In this document: one piece after another, positions 6,570-22,885 of the stretch
Layout: every line of letters starts with the position of its first letter
Position numbering within the stretch: the first letter of the stretch is position 1
Origin: a virus
Strand: one strand, 5' to 3'
Virus record (IMG/VR): IMGVR_UViG_3300046002_004963
Coordinates: 1 to 23,835 of that record
DNA: 23,835 nt
The notes under the pieces: generated by a model
Databases searched by the model: none
What the model was told of the DNA's origin: nothing
What the model saw: the letters and a program-made list of their open reading frames with translations, nothing else
Position numbers and translations under genes: made by a program

Positions 6570-7586
6570 TCAGTAATCCCAACGTACGCGTGGACGACCT
6601 AGCCGCATGCCGAGGTGGACGAACCCCTTGGTTGCGCCATATCCCAGCGAATACGGCCAAGTCCGATCACAGTACTCTTGCACCTCATAGATGTCCACGT
6701 CCTTGACGTAAAAGTCAACGGCGCCAACGCCGGTCATGTTGTAAAGATGCTCGCTGTTGCTGGCACCACCAACTTGTTTGTTCACCGCCGGTGGGCGATA
6801 GCCGGAAGTGATGATGATCGGCTTGCCACCAAAGTGATTGCGCACGTTTTCTAGGTATTTGCACAGCTCAACAGCGGTGTCACACTGTGCCTGCACCTGA
6901 AAGCGACGCTTCTCATCAAACAAAGCCAACTCCCCATAGGTGATATTGGGCGTCACCTTGAAGTTGAATGGCTTGTCAGGGGTGAACTTGTCGCCTACTG
7001 GTTTGCCCTGCACGTGCTGATTCATCAGCTTGATCAGCTTGTCGGCGTAGGTGGGATCAGTGGCATAGCCATCATTCACCAGCCAACGCGCAGCATCCTC
7101 ACGATCAGATGCGTTATTGCAACCCTTGTAGATGTGATAGTCCTTGTACCACCGCTCAACCAAGTAATACACGCACGTCTCAAGATCAGGGAAATCCAGG
7201 AACGTATCTTGAATTGTGATCCACTTGCCGTTGATGTATTCCTTGGTGTTCCGTGTAGTGCCGTTACCCTTCAACCCAAAGTAATTGTGCTCACCTGATA
7301 CGTGCTTGCCGTAGCCAGATTCCAGTGCCCACTGCGCGGCAACAAGCTCAGGGAATTTTGCACCAGCCTTTTTGGCAGCAGCACAAACACCATCCCAGTT
7401 GTTGTCAAACCTGTCCTGCTTGCCAGCCTGACTCCAAGTCTTGAACCAGATCTGATCCCTATTCAAGATGCCAGGCTTTGCCTTGAGAATGGCAGATTCC
7501 AACTCAAATATGGCCGCCGTTTGATGCGGCAGTTCCTTGTAATACTTGAACAGATCAACTAGCCGAAGGCGGTTCTGGGTCGTCAT
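6570..7586 (-). CDS. Two-domain endolysin: glucosaminidase plus M15 peptidase
   Basis: This 338-residue lysin degrades peptidoglycan in two ways. Residues about 75-190 match a bacterial glucosaminidase/FlgJ-like domain (ELVAAQWALESGYGKHVSG with catalytic Glu89, then NYFGLKG). Residues about 230-338 match an M15 zinc peptidase (ITSGYRPPAVNKQVGG, SEH with His280, GAVDF with Asp291, and GFVHLGMR with His324). No signal peptide is seen, so export would depend on a holin. ATG 7586, with GGA just upstream, is preferred over the GTG at 7619 that would overlap the previous gene further. It overlaps the preceding gene by 32 bases. Confidence 0.88.
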   Translation of the reverse strand: MTTQNRLRLVDLFKYYKELPHQTAAIFELESAILKAKPGILNRDQIWFKTWSQAGKQDRFDNNWDGVCAAAKKAGAKFPELVAAQWALESGYGKHVSGEHNYFGLKGNGTTRNTKEYINGKWITIQDTFLDFPDLETCVYYLVERWYKDYHIYKGCNNASDREDAARWLVNDGYATDPTYADKLIKLMNQHVQGKPVGDKFTPDKPFNFKVTPNITYGELALFDEKRRFQVQAQCDTAVELCKYLENVRNHFGGKPIIITSGYRPPAVNKQVGGASNSEHLYNMTGVGAVDFYVKDVDIYEVQEYCDRTWPYSLGYGATKGFVHLGMRLGRPRVRWDY

Positions 7587-7851
7587 CGTTCCAAGGAGAT
7601 GAGATAGACATCGGACCACCCAGAAGGCGGCTTTCTCCAGTCTGCTCAGGCGTAGGCTCTTCGTGTTTAATCACAGGCTGACGTTTGTTTCGCTCCATTT
7701 CAAGATCAATTACCTGATTGACCTTTTCAATTTCACGATCCAGTCGTGGCGTCAGAGTTGCGTGAAACTTGGCTTGTTGTGCAGCACGCAGTAAGTGATG
7801 CCGCCAGTCACGCTTGTCGTAACGCCACAACCAAACAACGTCAGCGTTCAA
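7555..7851 (-). CDS. Hypothetical protein of the lysis region, 98 residues
   Basis: The preferred start is TTG 7851, which overlaps the TGA of the small membrane protein gene (TTGA). The longer frame to 7899 would run over that gene. The protein begins NADVVWLWRYDKRDWRHHLLRAAQQA, continues with a charged helix (LDREIEKVNQVIDLEMERNKRQ) capable of coiled coil, and ends in an acidic proline-rich tail (NDDDPEPPSAS). It has no membrane segment or lipobox, so it is not an obvious spanin. Lying between two small membrane proteins and the endolysin, it is probably a lysis-cassette or structural accessory. Confidence 0.6.
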   Translation of the reverse strand: MNADVVWLWRYDKRDWRHHLLRAAQQAKFHATLTPRLDREIEKVNQVIDLEMERNKRQPVIKHEEPTPEQTGESRLLGGPMSISSPWNDDDPEPPSAS

Positions 7852-8978: not shown

Positions 8979-11900
8979 TCACCTGGCGCGGGCGTAATTA
9001 AAGGGCGATTCCGCGAAACTTGCGTACACATACGTGGTTCCGCTTCCGTTCACTTCTGCGCCGGACGCCCGCAGTTTGAACCCGTTGGAGAGAATGTCCA
9101 CGTAGCGAAGTGAGCTAGAAAACTCAGCCCCTGATGTGTCTGCCCGCAAGAATGCGTCGACTACGTTGTAAGTGGATCGCGCTGTGTCGATAATAATCCA
9201 GCTTTCATTTGCAACGGAAGTTGCCTTGATCATGATCCAGCGGCTTCTGTGTCCGGTGTAGATAAAGCTGCCATCTGACGAACCATTCCCTACATATGAG
9301 CCCATCGCAGAGTACCCGACTACTGGGGCGAAACAGTAGGCGACCATTGTGGCTCCACTTATGTTGTTGTCGTATCCGGTAAGAGTGCCAAACACTGTTG
9401 AACTAGGGGTAGTAGAGCCCCAGAAATTGCTTACATTTGTTTGGGCATTTGTGTTGTTTAACTGGAGAGTGTAATCTTTGCCGGTTGAAACGTGGTAGGT
9501 CTGCCACGCACTTGTTGTGCTTCTTGCTTTGACAAAAATTAGACCCGGTGCCACACCTAAACCATGTCCTACGGTGCCATTTGAGCTCGTGCCCGTATAG
9601 GTAACAATCGAGAAGCCCGCCGTGGCGTTAGCTCGCACACTAGAAGTGATGGAGCCTGCTGTGTTCGTAACCGTTGAGGTTCCGGCGTCCCAAGCCCAGC
9701 CGACATAGGTGCTTGAGTTGAGGTTGGTGTAAGTGCCATTTACCGTGCCAGACGCGACCGAGAAGCCGTCGGAATTGAAGGCGCTTAAATAGCCATACTC
9801 TTGGGTGGCAATACTTGACGTGTTGCCTTCCTCAAATGTTCCGCTAGACACCAGTTCTTTGTTGGCGCCCGCTCCACGGATCGCGTCAAACAAAACATGA
9901 TGCGCTGCAGAGTCCCTGCGCTTGATCCATACCAGATCAGGACTGAAGCCCAATCCAGTGATGTTTTGCGTACTGCCGTTGCCGGTGTACGTTTTCACGT
10001 CCATCACCGTGGAAGGCTTTGTGACTGATGGGGCGGGCAGGTTTGCTGTGCAGAGTGCTTTGAAGCCGCTGGGGGCGGTGTAGGCGAAGGCGCGTTGGCC
10101 GAAGTTGCAAGCGTAGGCAGGCACAGGGTTTCCATTTCTACCTGCAACTGGACCGTAGTTTCCTGTGACGCTAGTAAAAGCCTGCCCTTGCGATACGCCG
10201 TTTTTGTAAAAGGTCAATGTACCGTTGTCGGCATCCCATGCAATGCCAATAACATCTCCGACCGTGTACGAGGCTCCGTAACTTGTAGCGCTGTTGTTGA
10301 GTCTTTTTAACCCATCGTCTCTGTATCCCCAGGACTCGGACCCACTGTTCCCCATTTCACCAGTGTTGCCAATGCTGCCAATACCAACCAGCCCATAACT
10401 TGGAACAGAAGGCTGGGCTGTCATAGTGGCTTCCCAATACCATTTGCCCGATGATGCGGAAAACGTCGAATTAGCGCGTCCGTTGCTGCCTATGGTTACA
10501 TCTAGATTGCCGTTTGCATAAGTGGAGTTAACCGGGGACAGCGGGTTCCAAGTGCAATAGTTGCCACGAACCTCGCCCCCCACGCCCGTGTCCGTCTGCG
10601 CCCCGTTAGTGGGAACGTCAACTACGGAATCGTTGCCGGGATCGCTCAGAACAGAGCTGGATGCAGTGAAGCTATAAATCTTGTAGCCGCCGGATGTTGT
10701 TTTTGTATAGGTCAGGCTGGAGCCAATAAACGACAAATCGGGATTGGTATCGGCATAGCGGATTACAACAACGCCAGAACCACCATTGCCGCCATCTCCA
10801 CCGAACTGACTGCCGCCACCGCCGCCGCCACCAGTATTTGCGGTGCCGTTACTGCCTGCGCCTCCTGAGGTGAACGCGCCATTCCCGCCGCCACCTTGGC
10901 CGCCTGTGCCCGCGCCACCAGACAGCCGTGTGTCTCCTGCGCCGCCACCGCCACCGCCGTAATAGGTGGATGTGCCAGTAATGGACGAAGTTGCGCCGAT
11001 GCCGCCGTTACCACCGCCACCCGTGCTGGTCGTGCCGTTAGAACCTGCTCCTCCAGCACCACCACCGCCGCCAGGACCACCGGGATAGCCAAAGCCGTTG
11101 CCACCCGCATAGCCTTGGCCGGATGTTCCAGCGGCGCCGGTACGAGCTGAAGAATTAGATCCACCAGTCGATCCACCACCACCACTGCCGCCAGTAGTAG
11201 GAACGCCGTTATCTCCACCACCGCCGCCACCGCCATACGCAACGATTGATCCGAAGCGAGAGTCGCCGCCGTTAGAGCCTGCGGTATTACCTGTGTTGCC
11301 ACTGCCCCCAGCACCAACGATGACTTGGTAAAGGGAGGAACTGGTGATTGAAGTGGACGAGGCAAGAACGCCACCGCCACCGCCACCACCTGACAGGTCG
11401 CCACCTGCGCCACCGCCACCACCTACAACGAGGTAATCGACGCTGCTGACGCCACTGGGGAATTGGATGGCGTTTGGAGTTGAGCTGACGGACAAATTCG
11501 ACGGGGTGAAGTTATTCCCGTTGCCCGAAGTGTCCTTCCCTAATGTGGTCGCGGTAGCTGCACTGTTGTCCGCAAACTCAAGGTGGAAGCCGTTGGTGCC
11601 GTAGCTGCCGGTGTATGCCTTGGGGTTCCACACGCCGGTGGTGGCGTCGAACTCGCCGAAGCTGGTGGGGTCTAGGGCTTGGCCGTCGATGAAGTAGATG
11701 TCGGCGAGGTAGCCGGAGAGATACCTGGGATCAGCATCTCTTTGGCGACCAATAAAATGAACTGACGCTTGGTTGAAATTCGTATCTGCATTTTGCGATG
11801 GATTATTCCTGCTGCTGAATTGCGTAACCTCGCTTCCGTTAATGTAGACTCTTACTCTGTTATTTGCCGTTGCACTTGTTGTATCAATCGCAAACACTAC

Positions 11901-12227
11901 ATGATACCAGGCAGAGGCATCTCTGAAAACTTGTGTTGTAGATAGAGCGTTAGATCCAGCAATTACATTGGCTTTCAAGCCATCTTGTGCAAACGCCAGA
12001 ATCACATCGTCCTGCATACCAAAGAGTGTGTACTCAGACGATGAAGAAAGCGCACTTCGCTTCACCCACCCCGCCCAAGTCCACGTCTTGCGGTTACCAG
12101 CAGATGCAGGTGTGCGGCTTAAGTAAGCCGAATCGGCGGAGTTGAAGCGTAGTGATCTACTAATCCCTGTAGCGGCAGCAGTAACAGTCCGCAGCAGCAG
12201 TGCGTTGGCGTTTCCGGGAACTCCCAT
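8979..12227 (-). CDS. Large tail fibre: LamG, polyglycine, SPRY and C-terminal repeats
   Basis: This 1082-residue fibre probably makes first contact with the host surface. Domains in order: a LamG/concanavalin-like beta sandwich at about 15-230 (TWTWAGWVKRS, ASAWYHVVFAID, YLSGYLADIYFIDG); a glycine-rich region at about 263-490 with many GGGGGG runs, likely polyglycine-II helices; an SPRY-like domain at about 550-730 (GKWYWEATM, WDADNGTLTFYKNG); and a C-terminal region at 735-1082 with three related units (about 744, 876 and 977) of the type YTGNGS...G-x-P-x-LVWIK-x-R. It ends ESPFNYARAR, as in cyanophage fibres I recall. ATG 12227 lies three bases after the previous stop. The glycine-rich DNA creates a long false frame on the same strand. 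Confidence 0.85.
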   Translation of the reverse strand: MGVPGNANALLLRTVTAAATGISRSLRFNSADSAYLSRTPASAGNRKTWTWAGWVKRSALSSSSEYTLFGMQDDVILAFAQDGLKANVIAGSNALSTTQVFRDASAWYHVVFAIDTTSATANNRVRVYINGSEVTQFSSRNNPSQNADTNFNQASVHFIGRQRDADPRYLSGYLADIYFIDGQALDPTSFGEFDATTGVWNPKAYTGSYGTNGFHLEFADNSAATATTLGKDTSGNGNNFTPSNLSVSSTPNAIQFPSGVSSVDYLVVGGGGGAGGDLSGGGGGGGVLASSTSITSSSLYQVIVGAGGSGNTGNTAGSNGGDSRFGSIVAYGGGGGGGDNGVPTTGGSGGGGSTGGSNSSARTGAAGTSGQGYAGGNGFGYPGGPGGGGGAGGAGSNGTTSTGGGGNGGIGATSSITGTSTYYGGGGGGAGDTRLSGGAGTGGQGGGGNGAFTSGGAGSNGTANTGGGGGGGSQFGGDGGNGGSGVVVIRYADTNPDLSFIGSSLTYTKTTSGGYKIYSFTASSSVLSDPGNDSVVDVPTNGAQTDTGVGGEVRGNYCTWNPLSPVNSTYANGNLDVTIGSNGRANSTFSASSGKWYWEATMTAQPSVPSYGLVGIGSIGNTGEMGNSGSESWGYRDDGLKRLNNSATSYGASYTVGDVIGIAWDADNGTLTFYKNGVSQGQAFTSVTGNYGPVAGRNGNPVPAYACNFGQRAFAYTAPSGFKALCTANLPAPSVTKPSTVMDVKTYTGNGSTQNITGLGFSPDLVWIKRRDSAAHHVLFDAIRGAGANKELVSSGTFEEGNTSSIATQEYGYLSAFNSDGFSVASGTVNGTYTNLNSSTYVGWAWDAGTSTVTNTAGSITSSVRANATAGFSIVTYTGTSSNGTVGHGLGVAPGLIFVKARSTTSAWQTYHVSTGKDYTLQLNNTNAQTNVSNFWGSTTPSSTVFGTLTGYDNNISGATMVAYCFAPVVGYSAMGSYVGNGSSDGSFIYTGHRSRWIMIKATSVANESWIIIDTARSTYNVVDAFLRADTSGAEFSSSLRYVDILSNGFKLRASGAEVNGSGTTYVYASFAESPFNYARAR

Positions 12228-12230
12228 TGC

Positions 12231-13040
12231 TTAGCTCAGGTTGGTGATCAGCGTAGCGGTGATCTTCGTTGTGGACTGGACCGAATACACCAGACAATCC
12301 ACGGCAGCGGCAGTAGTGGTCAACGTTGGTGCTGTGCCGCCGGTGAAGTCCCACTGCGATCCATACGCCAAAGTACGGCTGCCCGTGCCGTCCTGCGTGA
12401 TCCAGATACAACCGCTAGCTCCAGCGGTCAGGTTCGTGGGGTTGGCGAGAGTGCGGTTGCCGCCGAGTGTCACGCTGAAGTTGTTGGCGAGGCTGAAATC
12501 AGGCGTGATCGTGGCGCCGTCGGTCAGAGCAGAGATTGCACCACGCTGTTGTGCCGTGAAGGTCTGCGCCGTGGCCAGTGCGGCGTAGCTTGCCCATGAC
12601 AGAACACCAGAGGCATTGGTGCTTAGTGCTTGGCCGCTGGTGCCATCAGCACTAGGTAGCGTCCATGTGACGTTGGTGCTGATCGTGGAGGGTGCCTGCA
12701 GTGCCACCCAGTTGCTGCTATCGGAATCTGCAAAACGCAGGTCGGATTGGGCGTTGAGGGTGATGTCGCCGGTGAAGGTCGCACCAGAGAGGGCAGCCAG
12801 ACCCAAGTTGGCGACGGTCACGTCACCGATGGTGATCCAGGCGCTGTTGGCGGCATTACGCAGTTTCAGCAGCGGGTTGGGACTGACGCTGGTGTCAATC
12901 CAGAGCTGATAGGCGTAAGTGGTGGTGGGGGCAGTAGAGCCAGAGTTTTGGCTGACGATTGCCGCCAGGATCGTGTTCAGCTCCGCCCGGAAGTTTGCAC
13001 CGGACTGGTTAGCAAGGTTGTAATCAGTTGCCTGTGCCAT
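12231..13040 (-). CDS. Tail fibre or tip-associated structural protein
   Basis: This 269-residue protein starts AQATDYNLANQSGANFRAEL, then has an N-terminal module (PLLKLRNAANSAWITIGDV) that I associate with phage fibres, several short repeats of GATFTGDITLNAQ type, and a C-terminal beta-rich part (NFSVTLGGNRTLANPTNL, GCIWITQDGTGSRTLAYG). This is typical of trimeric fibre shafts and lids. It follows J directly: its ATG at 13040 shares a base with the J stop. It precedes the large fibre gene, so it may link the tip complex to that fibre. The exact role is inferred from order and composition. Confidence 0.7.
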   Translation of the reverse strand: MAQATDYNLANQSGANFRAELNTILAAIVSQNSGSTAPTTTYAYQLWIDTSVSPNPLLKLRNAANSAWITIGDVTVANLGLAALSGATFTGDITLNAQSDLRFADSDSSNWVALQAPSTISTNVTWTLPSADGTSGQALSTNASGVLSWASYAALATAQTFTAQQRGAISALTDGATITPDFSLANNFSVTLGGNRTLANPTNLTAGASGCIWITQDGTGSRTLAYGSQWDFTGGTAPTLTTTAAAVDCLVYSVQSTTKITATLITNLS

Positions 13041-16000
13041 TAGGTGATCTGCCTGCCGTGGCCAACGGCTTGGTAGTCAAAGGTCTTACTCACCATGCTA
13101 CCTCCACTGTTTCTGAAGGTCACTGTGAATCCGGTGCGGCTAATACTGGAAAGGGTGAAGTAGTCGCCGGTGGCCATATCCTGCGCCGTGATGCCCACGC
13201 TTGGTGTGCCATAGAAGGCGGTTGGGAAGGTCACGCTATAAGCTGCAGCACCACTGCTGAGGTTGCGCTGCTGTTCGGTGCGGCGCTCGAAGTCAGCCTT
13301 GACGCCCAGCTCCTCCACCACCACGTTTTGCGCTGGGTTGCTGCTGGTGGCCACCAACTTGAACTGGAAGCCGCGACCACGGTGGTTGTTGTTGACGAAT
13401 GGCTGCCAGTCGCGCCAAGTCGGGGTGCTTGATGGGTTGTCGGATGTTGTACGGACAAACAGTTGGCAGTTGGCCGCACCAAGGTCGTCGCCGTCGATGT
13501 CGTCCCACAGGTCGATCAACTCCAGGCGCTCATCCCAAGTGTTGCCGGGTTCGTAGGAGCGTGTCTTGAGGATTTGCTGCAGACCCAAGTCGTAGACAGC
13601 GCCTAGATCAAGGGTTTCAGCGAACTGGTACTCGCCCTCGCTAACCGCACCACCGATGTAGTCGATCAGACCCAAGCCATCCCAGTTGTTGTCGGTGGCC
13701 ATGTCATCAATCAACTCATCCGCTGACAGCACCAGACCGACCTCAGTCTCGTTGTAGTACATGTCAGTGGCGGTGCCGTTGAAGGGCGGACTGTTGTCCT
13801 CCTCGCGGTATTCCTGCACCAAGAACAGATCCTGTGGTGCGGGCAGATCGACCACCACACTGGCTGTATCAGCAGATTCGTTGCCAAGGGAGTCAACGGC
13901 ACGGATGAAGTAGGTGCCCTCCAGCAGTGGGACAATTTTGCGGGTGCTGCTGCCGGCAACTGCAGGCACGATGTCGTTCGAGCGTCCCCACGTGGCGGTT
14001 ACGTCGGTCAGCGGGGTGTGGCGGATGCGGACTTTGCCGCCGATCTTCACGTCAAGGTCAACCGCCTGCGGCCAGTACAGCTCAGCGGTATGCTGATCAA
14101 TCGGGGCGATGAACAGGTCAGGGATGGTTTCCGGTGGCGCCGTCTTGCCAATGGCGTCATAGGTCTTGGTGGCAGCAGGGGATCGCTTGCTGTTGATTGC
14201 ACCAACGGCGGTCACTTCAATCTCGTAACGCCCCACGTCACTGTTCTGGATTTCGTAATCAACAGAACGAACGTTGCTGCGTACCCAGTTGCCGTTGTTG
14301 TAGCGGTAACGCACCTCATAGGTAAGGGCACGCTCAGCAGCACGCCAGCCAACAATCAACTTGGCCAGCACCTGACCGTTACTTTCGTAAAGCACCTCAT
14401 TGACAATCAAGTTGCTTGGCGCCAGTGGCGGCTCGTTCAGGTCTGAAACATCGCGTTGACTCAGTGGAACATCGCGCTCGATGTAGTCGTATTTCGTGCT
14501 GTTGTACGCGACAGCAGTGATTGCAAATGTTTCTTTGTCTTCCTTGACGGACAACACGCGCCAAGTTGACATGGCGACTCTGCTATCACCAATAGTCCAA
14601 GGCGCACCAGCCACAGGCGCCTCAGCCAACGTGGCACCCGGATAAATGGAGTTACCAACCAGTGTTGAGCCTGCAACGATTGCAAGTTGACCACTGGGCA
14701 GCAACACATTGAGGGTGAAACTATCGGGCGGACCGCTGGGGAACAGATCAACGTCAGTGCGATCCAATCGAACGCGAGTTGTAGTCGAGCCACTGGTGCA
14801 ACGGCCAGAACGCACAACACCTGCACGCACCGGATCGCCGATCTTGATCAGATCACCAGGGCGAACCGTGATGCCGGCGGCAATGTCAGTACTGAAGCTG
14901 ACAATCTCAGTTTCGTTTTGCTCTGTGTAGAGCAGCCATTCACCAACACGTCGCGCTTGTCCTTGACTTGTGCAACCAAACGCTGAAATCTCAATTTTGA
15001 TGACACCGAACTTCTCAATGCCCGCCTTGTCTTCAACGACCTCATAGGCAAGGTCGCGAAGGTTCATGTCGAAATACTGCACCACAGCAACGGTGTGGCG
15101 AGTCTTGAGGCTGCTGCCGCTGTAAGAAAAACCTTCTTCGGTGACGTTTGTTTGGTTGAAGATGTAGGAGTAATCTTGCGGGCGATCCTGTGAAATTTCC
15201 AGTGACCCTGCCGACCAGAACGGCATTGCACGGAACACTGAGCACAGGTCGTTGATCAGCTTGAATGCTTCTTCTTGCGTTTGAATGATGACGTTGCAAG
15301 CAAAACGTGGCTCTTGACCACCCTTGCCATCAGGCACAAGCTGCCCCGAATACTGACTGGCAGCTAAAAAGCTCCATTTATCAAGTTGCGTCGAATCAAT
15401 GTGATCGCCAAATCCATATCGCTTATTGGCTAAAAGATCCCAAAGAATCCAAGCGGGATCGGTTGTCCATTGCGCAGCGCCAAATGTGCCATTCCATGTG
15501 CCCGCATAAGTCAAGCGGCCATTTTCAGCGTCAACAGTAGCGTTACTAGGAATTTGTACTTTTATTCCACGAACACGGTACGAACGCTGGGGGATGCTGC
15601 TGAATTGCTCCGCATTTAACTTGACTGCAAACAATGCGCTGTTTGGATATCGCGTTTTGGCGTTAATTTTTTCTGTGTAGTCGTACCAATAGAAGTCACT
15701 ATTTTCCGTTGTGCCACCTGACGGAGCGGCATCAGCACTGATGCGAACAACTCGAATATCAACTGGCGGTGGCGAAGTTAAATCAATGCGATGGATGCGT
15801 TGATAAAGATCAGCCGTGCGGCCAACAATCTTGTCTGCAAAGACTGTTGAATAAGGACCGCCGCTGTAAGAAACACGAATTTCGTAATCAATCCGACCGC
15901 CTTCAACGTCACCGTTATTTTTAAAAACTTGTAGCGCAGGAGTGCCAATGGTTACGCGAACTGCATTGACATCTGGATCAGTGATTGATCGAGTGACAGG

Positions 16001-16420
16001 CGTACTGTTTGTAACCTTGGTATTGACAACCGTGGTGCTTTGGTTTGCGTCGCCTACGTTTTGTGTATAGGACTGGAGTTGCGTGCCAGTGCGAAACTCA
16101 AAAACAGCACCAGTTGTATCAAAGTTGTAATCAGCGGCTTGAGCATTGGCCGGATCTGCGCTTTCGCGCAATATTGGCGTGTTGTTGAGATATACATCTT
16201 TCAACATTGCGGTGTTGTATTCCGCAGTGCCAAGTGTGTAATAACGCGCAGAAGGAAACCCCTCTATTTCACCTTCGCCAAGCAAGTCGATAATTCTTGC
16301 AACTTGCTTTGAGTCAAGGTTGTCAGTTGTGACCTTGGCGCTACCGCCACCACCACCGCCGCCGCCTTTACCACCGCCGCCACCACCGCCGCCAGAGCCG
16401 ACAATTAGATCCTTAGGCAT
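13040..16420 (-). CDS. J: Tail tip / host specificity protein, lambda J-like
   Basis: This is the central hub protein that forms the tail tip and determines receptor binding. The 1126-residue length is close to lambda J (1132). The glycine-rich N-terminus (two long G runs, residues 9-26) leads to SKQVARIIDLLGEGEIEGF; hub domains follow with RYPNSALFAVKLNAEQFSS, WILWDLLANKRYGFGDHID and FGCTSQGQARRVGEWLLYTE, all matching lambda J segments. Fibronectin III-like sequence lies at about 655-760. The distal end (GYF-type turn, TGFTVTFRNSGG, then YQAVGHGRQ) is beta-rich and is the likely variable receptor-facing part. The ATG overlaps the I stop by eight bases. Confidence 0.9.
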   Translation of the reverse strand: MPKDLIVGSGGGGGGGGKGGGGGGGGSAKVTTDNLDSKQVARIIDLLGEGEIEGFPSARYYTLGTAEYNTAMLKDVYLNNTPILRESADPANAQAADYNFDTTGAVFEFRTGTQLQSYTQNVGDANQSTTVVNTKVTNSTPVTRSITDPDVNAVRVTIGTPALQVFKNNGDVEGGRIDYEIRVSYSGGPYSTVFADKIVGRTADLYQRIHRIDLTSPPPVDIRVVRISADAAPSGGTTENSDFYWYDYTEKINAKTRYPNSALFAVKLNAEQFSSIPQRSYRVRGIKVQIPSNATVDAENGRLTYAGTWNGTFGAAQWTTDPAWILWDLLANKRYGFGDHIDSTQLDKWSFLAASQYSGQLVPDGKGGQEPRFACNVIIQTQEEAFKLINDLCSVFRAMPFWSAGSLEISQDRPQDYSYIFNQTNVTEEGFSYSGSSLKTRHTVAVVQYFDMNLRDLAYEVVEDKAGIEKFGVIKIEISAFGCTSQGQARRVGEWLLYTEQNETEIVSFSTDIAAGITVRPGDLIKIGDPVRAGVVRSGRCTSGSTTTRVRLDRTDVDLFPSGPPDSFTLNVLLPSGQLAIVAGSTLVGNSIYPGATLAEAPVAGAPWTIGDSRVAMSTWRVLSVKEDKETFAITAVAYNSTKYDYIERDVPLSQRDVSDLNEPPLAPSNLIVNEVLYESNGQVLAKLIVGWRAAERALTYEVRYRYNNGNWVRSNVRSVDYEIQNSDVGRYEIEVTAVGAINSKRSPAATKTYDAIGKTAPPETIPDLFIAPIDQHTAELYWPQAVDLDVKIGGKVRIRHTPLTDVTATWGRSNDIVPAVAGSSTRKIVPLLEGTYFIRAVDSLGNESADTASVVVDLPAPQDLFLVQEYREEDNSPPFNGTATDMYYNETEVGLVLSADELIDDMATDNNWDGLGLIDYIGGAVSEGEYQFAETLDLGAVYDLGLQQILKTRSYEPGNTWDERLELIDLWDDIDGDDLGAANCQLFVRTTSDNPSSTPTWRDWQPFVNNNHRGRGFQFKLVATSSNPAQNVVVEELGVKADFERRTEQQRNLSSGAAAYSVTFPTAFYGTPSVGITAQDMATGDYFTLSSISRTGFTVTFRNSGGSMVSKTFDYQAVGHGRQIT

Positions 16421-17030
16421 TGGTGACCTCCTCGGTATTGATACCCGCAGAAATAATTACACTGCCGGTAAAGACTTCGCCGTAAATCACTGGTACTGGC
16501 ACACCTTGACGACTGACGTTTTGGATGCCGCTAAACGAATATGAACGCTTGGGATCCGTTGCGCTATCAGTGCCAGAGCTAATTGTTGAAGTTGGGGTTA
16601 GAAGTTGGGCAACGCCACCAAGAACAAGGCTGGCGCCAATGCCGGCAACAATTGGCACTGCTTGAGCACCAAAGGTAAATAATCCTCCAGCAAGAGCTGC
16701 TCCAGGCGCAAATAATATTGCAGCAGCAATCAAACCAACACCAGCCAAAATTTGTCCTGCGCCACTACCAGCGCCAGCAACGACAGGCACGATCCTGATG
16801 GCTTCTTGTGGTGCGGATGGGTAGTGCAGTTGCACCGGTTCATCCACAAGCTGCAAACCAAGCCGGCCAACAGTTACTTGGTATTCGCCTTCGCTCATCA
16901 CGCCACGAAGGCTGGGGAAATTGGCCAGCAGGAAACGAATTGCCTCAGCCGGTGACTTCACCGCAACCTTGAAACTCCGCTGCCCCAAATGCTTTGCCAG
17001 CTTGCCGTAGACCTTGATGACTCGGAACAT
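16413..17030 (-). CDS. I: Tail assembly protein, lambda I-like
   Basis: This protein of about 205 residues from ATG 17030 (AGGTG upstream) begins MFRVIKVYGKLAKHLG, the usual I-family opening with a ubiquitin-like fold (VKSPAEAIRFLLANFPSL). It then has a hydrophobic glycine/alanine region (AGVGLIAAAILFAPGAALAGG and GIGASLVLGGVAQLL, about 105-155) and a C-terminus with SFSGIQNVSRQGVPVPVIYG, a common end of this family. I proteins assist assembly of the tail tip and are not always present in the virion. The order K-I-J is preserved. One base separates the K stop from this start. Confidence 0.85.
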   Translation of the reverse strand: MFRVIKVYGKLAKHLGQRSFKVAVKSPAEAIRFLLANFPSLRGVMSEGEYQVTVGRLGLQLVDEPVQLHYPSAPQEAIRIVPVVAGAGSGAGQILAGVGLIAAAILFAPGAALAGGLFTFGAQAVPIVAGIGASLVLGGVAQLLTPTSTISSGTDSATDPKRSYSFSGIQNVSRQGVPVPVIYGEVFTGSVIISAGINTEEVTNA

Positions 17031-17031
17031 T

Positions 17032-17742
17032 TCAACACCTACTGGTATGCCGAACAATCAAGCCTGTGCTCTTCTGATAGTAGCCACCCCAAACGTCACG
17101 GCTACTGAGGCGACCGCGTAAATGGTGCAAAATCCTTTGCTCACCCACGTAGACCGCCACGTGGTTCAAACCAGGTGATCCGTCAAGCTGCATCAAAATT
17201 GCATCGCCATATTCCGGTTCACTCAATCCCAAATCAACAAAACCAGCAGCGGCAAAACACTCTTTGAACATTGGTGCTTTGTGGAAATCCAACATTGACG
17301 GCGGACGCTGCCAATCAGGCAAGTCAAGGTTCAATTCTTGTTTGTACCAGTCGCGTGCCAATGTCCAGCAATCACTGACGGACCACACCCATTGCCTTCC
17401 GATCAATGGAGCAGCGTACCCTTCCGGTTCAATGCAACACCAAATTTCCGTTCCAGGATTGCAGATGTACCAAAGCAAACCTGATTTTTCGCATGCCATC
17501 CGATCAGCCTCACTGGCTTGAGCCGGACTTTGTGGATGGCTATGAAACACAGCCGTGACTTCACCAGCTTCTTCTGCGCTGATGTAATCCTCAGGATCTA
17601 GGACGAAGAAGTCACGAGAATCCGCCAGGTTTTTACACGGCCAATACTTCTCTCGTCCCTTGATGACCACCACCAAACCACATGCCTCTCGTGGCGCCTC
17701 TTGCAGGGCGTGTTCAAGAGCAGCAGCTTTCCAGTGTGTCAT
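17032..17742 (-). CDS. K: Tail tip peptidase: JAMM domain plus NlpC/P60, lambda K-like
   Basis: The 236-residue protein joins two hydrolase domains. The N-terminal JAMM/JAB part has E19 (PREACG) and a perfect HxHx10D zinc motif, HSHPQSPAQASEAD (His67, His69, Asp80). The C-terminal NlpC/P60 part has DCWTLARDWY with catalytic Cys125, and LNHVAVYVG with His194. Lambda K has the same pairing. It likely cuts peptidoglycan peptides or processes tip proteins during infection or assembly. The ATG overlaps the L stop (ATGA). Confidence 0.9.
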   Translation of the reverse strand: MTHWKAAALEHALQEAPREACGLVVVIKGREKYWPCKNLADSRDFFVLDPEDYISAEEAGEVTAVFHSHPQSPAQASEADRMACEKSGLLWYICNPGTEIWCCIEPEGYAAPLIGRQWVWSVSDCWTLARDWYKQELNLDLPDWQRPPSMLDFHKAPMFKECFAAAGFVDLGLSEPEYGDAILMQLDGSPGLNHVAVYVGEQRILHHLRGRLSSRDVWGGYYQKSTGLIVRHTSRC

Positions 17743-19283
17743 CCGTAGAAGGTACCGGCGCTGGGGAATGATCCAAATGGTAAGTCGGCAAACTCACCAA
17801 AACGCTTCTTGCAGGAGCTGATGCGCTTACCGCAGACATCCTTGAGGGGATCATTTGTCCCTGTTACCACCCGAGGCTCTGTTGCACTGCTTTGTCCTTG
17901 CGACCAAAGAGAAACGTTTGCGCTTGTATAAAGATTCAAAACACCGGTATTGCCTATGTTCAATCGATTGTTTGCATTGCCAGTCACGGCAGTGATTTCA
18001 TATTGCGGACCGGCTGAAGTCAGGACGCTAACAGATGGATTGTTGTATTTAAAAGGGTTGCCATCAGACAGCGTTTTTGTCAAATTGATTGCTTCGCCTT
18101 GATACCAAGTTCCAGTCGACGCAGTGATGGTTGCGCTTTGGATCAAGTTCCATGCATATGTTTGACCGCTGTAACTATTTTCCGTGGTAGGACTGGATTC
18201 AAATACAAATTCAACAGTTAAAGATCGACCGTCAATCGTAAAAGTTTCTGTTTGCGTATTGGTCAAACCAGCGGAACCAGGGTTAGACCCAACACATTCA
18301 TATCCAAAACCACCGGAACGTCCAGTGGATACATCGGTTGGATACCAACCCAAAAATTGCATCGTTGTTGGCTGTGCTCTGGCAACTGTGTTGGTTGCCC
18401 AAATGGCTGAACTGCCGTTGTAAATAACAAGGTTGCCATCAGATTGCATCTGCAACCGATATGTGCCATCGCCGTAGACAGTATTGCTTGCCCAAGTGGC
18501 TACACCAGCCTTGTTGTACATAACAAAGTTGCCGTCCGATTGCATAACAGCGCGATACCAACCATTGGACGAAACAATCGCATCGCCTTCGTTTAAAACC
18601 TCTCCAACCGTCAATTCGTTGCCAAACGATGTTGCATTGAAGTTTGTTGCAGCCACTGAGTTCACGGGATTATCAAATTCGTCAAAGTAATTTGTCCCCT
18701 CATAGCCGCATTCTGCGCTGCGGTATTTCCACTGACAAATGTTTGCAATTACCTGCCGCTTGGGAGCGCGAACATTGGCCAAGTCAAACGATGCAGCCAA
18801 TTCAAATTCAACGATTTCGCGATTCTCTAATGACTTGCGATCAACGTAATAAATCTCGCGTGGCATTTCTTCGTTGGCTGGCGTCCCATACGGATTGGTT
18901 CCACTGGCAAAATTCCTGCCATCCAAGAAGCGACTTAAGGTTCGGATGCGTATTACTTTTGCGCCAATCAAATCATTACCAGGCGTGAATTCGTTGACGC
19001 CAATTAACAATGCAGAAATCGTGCCAAGCAGGTTGGCAACTCGTATTTTTGGACGTGGCAACTGACCACTGCCGTTGTACTCAAATCCTTCAGCCTCAAC
19101 AGGCAATGCGGTATAGGTATTTCCGTTCCAATAAATATCCCCAGCAGTTGCTGTTTCATTGACGCCCGCATGAAAGCGAACAATATCAGTGCTGCCATGC
19201 AGTAATTGATCAAGGTGCAGCTCAAATAGCTCAATGATCGCGTAAGGATTGGAGCTAAGTAGCTCCTTAAACATTTCGCTCAT
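17739..19283 (-). CDS. L: Tail tip protein, lambda L-like, with inserted bulb-lectin domain
   Basis: This 514-residue protein is more than twice lambda L (232 residues). The ends match L: an N-terminal module, then QWKYRSAECGYEG with Cys183 and Cys192, and at the end VCGKRISSCKKRFG with Cys484 and Cys491 plus LPFGSFPSAGTF. In L these four cysteines bind an iron-sulfur cluster. Between them lies an extra segment of about 270 residues (208-476). Residues about 220-300 form a B-lectin (monocot mannose-binding type) unit with two perfect QxDxNxVxY motifs, QSDGNFVMY (248-256) and QSDGNLVIY (280-288). Residues 310-470 are further beta-rich sequence with one extra cysteine (Cys330), and another unit (LNIGNTGVLNLYTSANVSLW, about 441-460) resembles a degenerate lectin repeat. 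Insertion leaves both core halves intact, so the cluster site is probably preserved. Confidence 0.9.
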   Translation of the reverse strand: MSEMFKELLSSNPYAIIELFELHLDQLLHGSTDIVRFHAGVNETATAGDIYWNGNTYTALPVEAEGFEYNGSGQLPRPKIRVANLLGTISALLIGVNEFTPGNDLIGAKVIRIRTLSRFLDGRNFASGTNPYGTPANEEMPREIYYVDRKSLENREIVEFELAASFDLANVRAPKRQVIANICQWKYRSAECGYEGTNYFDEFDNPVNSVAATNFNATSFGNELTVGEVLNEGDAIVSSNGWYRAVMQSDGNFVMYNKAGVATWASNTVYGDGTYRLQMQSDGNLVIYNGSSAIWATNTVARAQPTTMQFLGWYPTDVSTGRSGGFGYECVGSNPGSAGLTNTQTETFTIDGRSLTVEFVFESSPTTENSYSGQTYAWNLIQSATITASTGTWYQGEAINLTKTLSDGNPFKYNNPSVSVLTSAGPQYEITAVTGNANNRLNIGNTGVLNLYTSANVSLWSQGQSSATEPRVVTGTNDPLKDVCGKRISSCKKRFGEFADLPFGSFPSAGTFYG

Positions 19284-19651
19284 GGTTCAAATACCTGCAC
19301 GAAACTGGCCGTGATGATATTGATGTTTGCGTACTGCAGCTCCCTGCTCCAATTGGGGCAGATGTATTTGCCAGCAGTGCCGCCGGCAGGTGGTGTCCAA
19401 TCAAATGGAGCAGCATCATTTGCCCGAGCATCAAAAAATGCTTCAATCGCATCTGCATCGGCATTGCTCTTTGCCGTCCACTTCAGATCCCAGACCTTCG
19501 GGTTCTGATTCAAACCAAAACGCAAACGCTGCTGATAGCCATCACCAAACTGAACAGTGCGCAGCTTTGGTTCACTCTTCTTGGTCAGGCTGAAGTCAGG
19601 CGTTGTACCGCCAGTGCTTGTACCAACCGTGGCATCGTTAAAAGTAGCCAT
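19280..19651 (-). CDS. M: Minor tail protein, lambda M-like
   Basis: This 123-residue protein (lambda M is 109) belongs to the minor tail protein M family, which joins the tape measure and tail tip. Typical sequence includes PKLRTVQFGDGYQQRLRFGL near the middle, then LKWTAKSNADADAIEAFFDA and FDWTPP. The ATG at 19651 shares its first base with the tape measure stop. The stop overlaps the L start (ATGA). Confidence 0.88.
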   Translation of the reverse strand: MATFNDATVGTSTGGTTPDFSLTKKSEPKLRTVQFGDGYQQRLRFGLNQNPKVWDLKWTAKSNADADAIEAFFDARANDAAPFDWTPPAGGTAGKYICPNWSRELQYANINIITASFVQVFEP

Positions 19652-22215: not shown

Positions 22216-22876
22216 TTGCGGCTCGCATTCAAAACGGAAAGGGCAGCCATTTCCATCACCTGCACGCCCTCAAAGACAGCGACAGGATCCTTGACTGAAT
22301 ACAGCTTACAGAGCCATTCAAGACTCGGGTAGTTCAATCCTGTCAAACCGGCCATGCTCGTCTGCCATTGCGTCGACATGCGGATGAACATCACCACGAT
22401 TTCCCAATTCTCCTCCCAAATTTCACAATCCTGCTGTACTGCCTGCAGATGTGCAGCGGCAATCTGCTCCTCGCTTGCGCCAAGAGCACGTAGATCAGCT
22501 TCGCGCTCGTCTATAACGCCGCCTTTCGCCCAGTACTCAGCGGCGTCTTTTAGTTTTTTGCCGGCGCCCCAGTGACGCTATCGGCATATGCCTGAATCAA
22601 AGCCTTCATGACGTACGGATCGTCACACAGCTCTTTCTTGTTCTTTTCAGTGAAAGGGACTGACTTACCAGCCTCATCATTGATGCCATCCCAACCTTCA
22701 AGGATCCCATCAACAAGAGCGTCATCACCTTTGTCAATAAGATCATTAAAAGCTGAACGACTCATCTTCTTGAAGACCGCTTCAAACACTTGAGTTTCAA
22801 AGCGATTTCCGTCAACCGGAGTTTCAACTTTGACTTCCCATTTGTAGGAAGCAGTCTTCTTGAGGACGAATGCCAT
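22212..22876 (-). CDS. GT: Tail assembly chaperone G-T, made by -1 frameshift
   Basis: This product consists of G (108 residues from ATG 22876) joined, by a -1 slip at 22559-22553, to a T extension of 113 residues ending at 22212, giving 221 residues. The T frame is open without interruption from the slip site to the stop and has no ATG until well inside it (three codons into the GTG-GTG-ATG cluster near 22397), so it is expressed only as a fusion. It contains EYWAKGGVIDEREADLRALG, then WEENWEIVVMFIRM and TQWQ, resembling the DUF1799-type T domain. Lambda uses the G:G-T ratio to load the tape measure with tail protein; the same role is expected here. The next gene, H, overlaps its stop. Confidence 0.88.
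22516..22559 (-). promoter_or_regulatory. Programmed -1 ribosomal frameshift signal
   Basis: On the minus strand the heptamer A AAA AAC (22559-22553) ends exactly in front of the TAA of G. A six-base spacer is followed by a GC-rich stem, ACGCCGC (22546-22540) pairing with GCGGCGT (22522-22516) across a 17-base loop. Heptamer, spacer and stem match the standard design of a -1 frameshift site. Confidence 0.88.
22550..22876 (-). CDS. G: Tail assembly chaperone G
   Basis: This is the unshifted 108-residue product, ending in GAPAKN before TAA. It starts MAFVLKKTASYKWEVKVETP and has an acidic helical middle (DDALVDGILEGWDGIND). G coats the tape measure during tail assembly and is absent from the virion in lambda. 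ATG 22876 is used; a TTG at 22882 (giving MLMAF) lies two codons earlier but is less likely. The preceding major tail gene ends nine bases upstream, with no good ribosome site, so translation is probably coupled. Confidence 0.85.
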   Translation of the reverse strand: MAFVLKKTASYKWEVKVETPVDGNRFETQVFEAVFKKMSRSAFNDLIDKGDDALVDGILEGWDGINDEAGKSVPFTEKNKKELCDDPYVMKALIQAYADSVTGAPAKN

Positions 22877-22885
22877 GAGCAAAGA

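Follow-up and report, generated by a model that had tools for sequence, protein, structure and literature searches.

The tail-tip protein L encoded in the window, which is the whole stretch of 23,835 nucleotides analysed here (IMG/VR virus record IMGVR_UViG_3300046002_004963), was found to carry a cassette of 269 amino acids (residues 213-481) placed between the two pairs of its predicted cluster cysteines, and structure prediction shows this cassette as a complete beta-prism II bulb lectin. The cassette probably acts as a composite host-binding arm on the gpL trimer, with the lectin making reversible glycan contact and a domain nested within it providing specificity.

The L homologue of 514 amino acids lies on the minus strand within the tail gene order M-L-K-I-J, matches Pfam Phage_tail_L at E=3e-57, and scores above both curated cut-offs (PF05100, 193.6 bits against 25; TIGR01600, 210.6 against 70.75). 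Cysteines are located at residues 183, 192, 330, 484 and 491, among which Cys183/192 and Cys484/491 are the two predicted cluster pairs of the C-terminal domain, conserved in complete relatives. Lambda gpL (8iyk_L) shares with the window protein the core fold (L residues 4-174, Z 11.6 by VIA structure alignment), the four cluster cysteines, located at 173/182/205/212 in lambda (PMC10721106), and the gene order, whereas its cysteine pairs are separated by only ~22 residues, against 291 in the window. The I-like protein, recognised by its place between K and J, gave no match in a Pfam search. The gene, its core and its neighbours are as follows:

17739-19283, minus strand: gene L, gpL-like tail-tip protein with cassette, 514 aa (Pfam, TIGR01600, VIA)
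18648-19283, minus strand: L core, N-terminal part, residues 1-212 (aligned to residues 2-208 of the empty homologue L047)
18735-18737, minus strand: Cys183 (invariant in alignment A1)
18708-18710, minus strand: Cys192 (invariant in alignment A1)
17742-17840, minus strand: L core, C-terminal part, residues 482-514 (81% identity to the L047 C-terminus)
17832-17834, minus strand: Cys484
17811-17813, minus strand: Cys491
19280-19651, minus strand: M-like minor tail protein (Pfam Phage_min_tail, 2.9e-22)
17032-17742, minus strand: K-like JAB and NlpC/P60 protein (Pfam)
16413-17057, minus strand: I-like tail protein
13040-16420, minus strand: J-like central fibre/hub protein (Pfam FNIII-A_GpJ and Phage-tail_3)

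Other features were also observed around these genes. The C-terminus of J (residues 1062-1110) gave an H-type lectin match below threshold (20.9 bits against 24), so that a second sugar-binding element may be present on the same tip; a G-like ORF (22216-22882, minus strand) ends in GCA AAA AAC TAA, where a -1 shift at AAAAAAC would add ~115 codons reaching the tape measure gene, comparable to the lambda G/GT frameshift; a lysin-like ORF (6570-7619, minus strand) fuses a glucosaminidase domain (1.9e-19) to an M15 peptidase domain (4.7e-22); and a fibre-like protein of 1,082 aa (8979-12227, minus strand) contains glycine-rich, SPRY and DUF7483 domains and has relatives in Pelagibacter, Methylophilales, Roseobacter and Synechococcus phages.

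The IMG/VR scan for relatives of the locus yielded 60 related loci, and one of the relatives, L047, represents a natural empty site. This protein of 241 amino acids is 55% identical to the window L; its residues 2-208 match query residues 1-212 and its residues 209-240 match query residues 482-513 with nothing between, and because L047 thus joins query residue 212 directly to 482, the cassette boundaries were set at 213-481, close to the 17860-18660 given by the original prediction. All 115 cassette copies found (115/115) lie inside L ORFs. The base composition of the insert equals that of the core, with no GC anomaly. Large inserts in L were absent from 60 records evenly sampled from 1,506 cultured L-bearing phages (0/60), and tblastn of the insert against cultured phages gave no match, so no isolate with the cassette is present in the cultured-phage collection. 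The cassette and its lectin parts are located as follows:

17841-18647, minus strand: inserted cassette, residues 213-481 (missing from L047; all copies found inside L ORFs)
18372-18629, minus strand: bulb-lectin lobes 1 and 2, residues 219-304 (PDB sequence matches ~1e-19; gastrodianin model match)
17883-17969, minus strand: bulb-lectin lobe 3, residues 439-467 (structural match to the gastrodianin C-terminal lobe)
18516-18542, minus strand: predicted lectin site 1, QSDGNFVMY, residues 248-256 (strict motif in 56/60 distinct relatives)
18420-18446, minus strand: predicted lectin site 2, QSDGNLVIY, residues 280-288 (strict motif in 55/60)
17928-17954, minus strand: degenerate site 3, GNTGVLNLY, residues 444-452 (perfect counterpart in L039/L042)

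AlphaFold2 was run on 26 natural sequences and gave pLDDT values of ~85-95 over most of residues 211-470, the L core being modelled poorly and with low confidence. All 110 of the 110 residues of gastrodianin (1xd6) were aligned with model residues 221-466 (VIA, Z 18.0, rmsd 1.3 Å), from which the prism is taken as complete, and many other bulb lectins matched the cassette model at Z 11-17. The prism is three-lobed, with lobes 1-2 kept apart from lobe 3 by the nested domain. Sequence comparisons point to the same fold, the cassette matching pyocin L1 at 7e-20 and the garlic, daffodil and gastrodia lectins at ~1e-17 to 1e-19, and the whole-set profile matching gastrodianin-4 at 1e-24. The Pfam B_lectin scores of the window (25 bits) and of L039 (31.8 bits) both fall under the curated cut-off of 32.4, probably because the nested domain interrupts the profile. 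A literature search covering few subscription journals returned nothing relevant on bulb-type lectins in phage tails.

Plant bulb-lectin modules contain three QxDxNxVxY motifs, and pyocin L1 binds D-rhamnose (PMC6240691). The cassette contains two perfect copies separated by 32 residues, where ~0.00015 would be expected by composition, and the third position holds a degenerate unit. L039 and L042 have a perfect QNDGNLVVY at this position, which identifies lobe 3 as a real lectin lobe and the third unit as a real one. Unit 1 retains its Q-D-N residues in 58/60 distinct complete relatives, unit 2 in 59/60 and unit 3 in 4/60; one strict unit-2 residue is missing in 5/60 relatives, and where site 1 is lacking, in two relatives, site 3 is intact, so that each protein has at least two sites. 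This conservation fits a selected binding function. The original prediction, which had called a lectin inserted between the cluster cysteine pairs with two perfect motifs and a later degenerate unit, was thus borne out by the AlphaFold model, whose beta-prism is predicted with high confidence, and by the empty site of L047; the retention of the L core with all four cysteines around the insert, which it had also proposed, is seen both in the predicted model and in the alignments to L047 and relatives, and the comparison of L homologues that it suggested is what mapped the insertion boundaries. Its account of the insert's composition was right for the lectin units and missed the domain nested between units 2 and 3.

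This nested domain constitutes half of the cassette and its most variable part, with the following positions:

17970-18371, minus strand: nested domain, residues 305-438, between lectin lobes 2 and 3 (AlphaFold; hhalign to a hub domain)
18099-18251, minus strand: most variable segment of the nested domain, ~residues 345-395 (L013 versus L153 DNA identity 43-60%)

Predicted alone, the domain of ~134 amino acids reached pLDDT 92.8 and pTM 0.87 (AlphaFold). Searches against the PDB gave nothing below E 0.5 with Foldseek (best E 0.54), a best Z of 3.2 with VIA and, as the best profile match, a 43-residue stretch of a flagellin hook motif at E 0.0015; the fold is accordingly unrecognised, and the absence of a PDB match does not show that it is a new one. 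The IMG/VR scan with the nested-domain profile recovered L proteins and one other context, contig L280, where two tandem copies are present in a hub-like ORF of 1,175 aa, and a further scan found 13 contigs with a tandem pair near residues 750-1010 of hubs of ~1,450 aa, which match PHROG 27845. The nested domain and the hub tandem domain were related by profile-profile alignment (hhalign) with 99.1% probability, E 1.2e-18 and 127 columns. Neither the nested domain nor its hub homologue gave a match in cultured phages, and bacterial genomes contained 532 lectin-like stretches, 80 of which were examined and none of which (0 of 80) contained the nested domain. The only L-like match among these 80, L294 on MAG contig RGVP01000028.1, has this L gene as far as lectin lobe 2, beyond which the contig continues as apparently unrelated sequence; it is probably a chimeric contig and says nothing on the host, since other sequence is joined inside L.

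The cassette-bearing proteins cluster together in a tree built from 91 L cores, next to a group made up of L proteins that are either plain or fitted with a different insert. No complete member of the lectin clade lacks the cassette, and the concern attached to the original prediction, that the segment might be ubiquitous and hence ordinary, is answered by its absence from L047-type relatives and from the sampled cultured records. Two loci considered as cassette losses inside the clade, L044 and L045, were rejected, both being truncated at contig ends. The mean pairwise identity is 82% and 85% in the two core parts versus 55-60% in the cassette parts. The L core and downstream DNA of L004 are 92-95% identical to the L027/L029/L034 lineage, while its cassette DNA is 92-95% identical to that of the window, to which its core is only 73% identical, with both breakpoints close to the cassette ends; this recombinant is known from one metagenomic contig. 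L035 and L021 are ~94% identical in core DNA, ~50-80% in the cassette and 93% after it. Between L013 and L153 the identity is 100% over residues 138-310, drops to 43-60% in DNA at ~350-385 and is back at ~90% afterwards, a pattern that indicates strong diversification inside the nested domain. These three cases represent three kinds of exchange, and near-identical phages thus differ by whole-cassette swaps or by replaced segments within the nested domain.

Other arms were observed at the same site. Synechococcus phage S-CBS4 L (AEX56003.1) and its relatives, 27 loci in all with other IMG/VR contigs, carry, like the window, a large cassette between the cysteine pairs, but theirs is a different one of ~240 aa, without the lectin motif and without a Pfam lectin match; its sequence has alanine-rich, helix-like flanks around a variable head and is probably a coiled-coil arm. 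The nearest precedent comes from published structures: in the RcGTA hub (Rcc01696, g13) and the roseophage R4C hub, an oligosaccharide-binding domain lies between the halves of the ion-binding domain (PMC7296036, PMC10276861), and the cysteines of the R4C sequence are indeed spaced in this way (Cys147/157 ... 244/251). Like the window L, these hubs are gpL-type with a four-cysteine iron-sulfur cluster (predicted in the window) and have the added domain between the first and second cysteine pair; unlike it, their domain is of ~80 residues, is not a bulb lectin and has no nested second domain, and the RcGTA insert has been compared with the LKA1 tailspike insertion domain (PMC7296036). Their attachment domain belongs to a different Pfam family, PF09931; R4C matches PF09931 and PF09356, whereas the window core matches PF05100 and falls outside PF09931. 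As these hubs carry an oligosaccharide-binding domain at this place, and S-CBS4 phages another arm, there is precedent for sugar-binding domains in proteins of the L type, and the idea that such a placement stands alone is not supported.

Comparable modules are also known outside the L family. The evolved Dit proteins of lactococcal, streptococcal and Lactobacillus phages have carbohydrate-binding modules in loops that aid adsorption (PMC7291167); they resemble the window L in that a module is inserted in a loop of a tail-tip structural protein, and differ in the carrier (Dit rather than L), in the other CBM folds and in their Gram-positive hosts. The lectin-like bacteriocins pyocin L1 and putidacin L1 share the bulb-lectin fold and QxDxNxVxY sites, which they use against the Gram-negative surface sugar D-rhamnose (PMC6240691), but are free bacteriocins with tandem prisms, whereas in the window one split prism forms part of a virion protein; with one prism rather than two in tandem, the cassette scores 48.3 bits against the NF033557 cut-off of 275 and lies outside the LlpA family. 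What is already known is hence a sugar-binding domain between gpL-type cysteine pairs (RcGTA, R4C) and tip proteins bearing CBMs (evolved Dits), and the new elements are the identification as a bulb lectin, the nested domain, whose fold is not recognised and which also occurs in another family of hubs, and the evidence that cassettes are exchanged.

Further variation of L was recorded elsewhere in the protein. A second insertion site follows the second cysteine pair and precedes the C-terminal PFGSFPG motif, with inserts of ~225 aa and unrecognised fold in L084 (3995-5398), L091, L112, L113, L118, L122, L124 and L126; the L of marine single-cell virus AG-345-A17 (L063:4989-5981) has an insert of ~140 aa with threonine-rich flanks at residue 125; and all four cluster cysteines are missing from this protein and from the L of Prochlorococcus phage MED4-184 (L064:3980-4555).

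The nearest phages to the window J are Prochlorococcus MED4-117 and MED4-184 (94-97% coverage, 36% identity), the cultured L relatives include S-H1, KBS-S-2A and S-CBS4, and the only cultured phages with hubs related to the tandem-domain hubs are S-CBS1, S-CBS3, S-LBS1 and Mic1, whose hosts are Synechococcus or Microcystis/cyanobacteria. Judged from these relatives of J and of the hubs, the host of the window virus is likely to be picocyanobacteria. No psbA-type genes, sought as a host marker, were detected in 10 related contigs, which are possibly incomplete.

Acting as a host-binding arm, the cassette would be present in three copies projecting outward from the tip, one per L of the trimer; the arms are so placed because the iron-binding domain of lambda faces outward and gpL is trimeric, the orientation being taken from the lambda structure in view of the low confidence of the L core model. 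The lectin sites would make weak, reversible contacts with mannose-like residues (D-mannose or D-rhamnose) of the host surface polysaccharide and so bring the tip to the cell, the nested domain would add a narrower specificity, and J would afterwards engage the receptor and complete adsorption. It is unlikely, by comparison, that the lectin is a carrier only, the prism being a rigid mount and all recognition, of a protein or glycan receptor, falling to the nested domain: that domain is indeed the most divergent, is exchanged alone between phages that are nearly identical elsewhere and is found in another hub as a tandem with no lectin, yet a pure scaffold would not need the Q-D-N residues, which are kept in units 1 and 2 while the rest of the lobes varies. 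That the lectin binds non-host glycans, such as dissolved or particle-bound polysaccharide or biofilm matrix, and concentrates virions near hosts agrees with the breadth of mannose-type sites, the environmental origin of the contigs (IMG/VR) and a host receptor that is not known; the placement at the tail tip beside J, not on the capsid or tube, and the fast exchange of the nested domain, which resembles host-receptor matching, make it rather improbable. That the cassette serves the structure or assembly of the tip, with no role in binding, is very improbable. All complete clade members keep it, and its loop links both halves of the cluster domain; against this, it is absent from sister clades and from most cultured phages, the conservation of its sequence is poor next to that of the core, and unrelated arms are found at the same place. 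An intein or intron-like element or a chimeric assembly, suggested by an insertion at a conserved position within a conserved gene, was rejected as barely credible, as the reading frame is continuous in 60 distinct complete proteins of independent contigs from many metagenomes, the insert has a lectin fold and the base composition of the core, and Pfam found no intein-like domain.

Beyond the host-binding arm itself, the loop between the gpL cysteine pairs looks like a docking port, because related viruses swap the cassette or mount other arms there. It is a tentative possibility, at somewhat less than an even chance, that this loop serves in general as a port at which arms for host binding (the bulb lectin, the coiled-coil arm and the oligosaccharide-binding domain) can be exchanged, and that the nested domain is a new type of adhesin fold directed at picocyanobacterial surfaces, moving between unrelated hubs and giving specificity, with the lectin making a reversible first contact. 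Little is known of the receptors of cyanobacterial siphophages or of the phage parts that bind them, and the conserved scaffold with its exchangeable cassette offers, as a candidate for the host-binding part, a defined unit that can be expressed, while the split between scaffold and cassette predicts where variation in host recognition would be located. The comparison with RcGTA, R4C and S-CBS4 further suggests what the cluster domain of gpL, otherwise unexplained, may be for, namely a rigid, outward-facing mount that tolerates large inserts.
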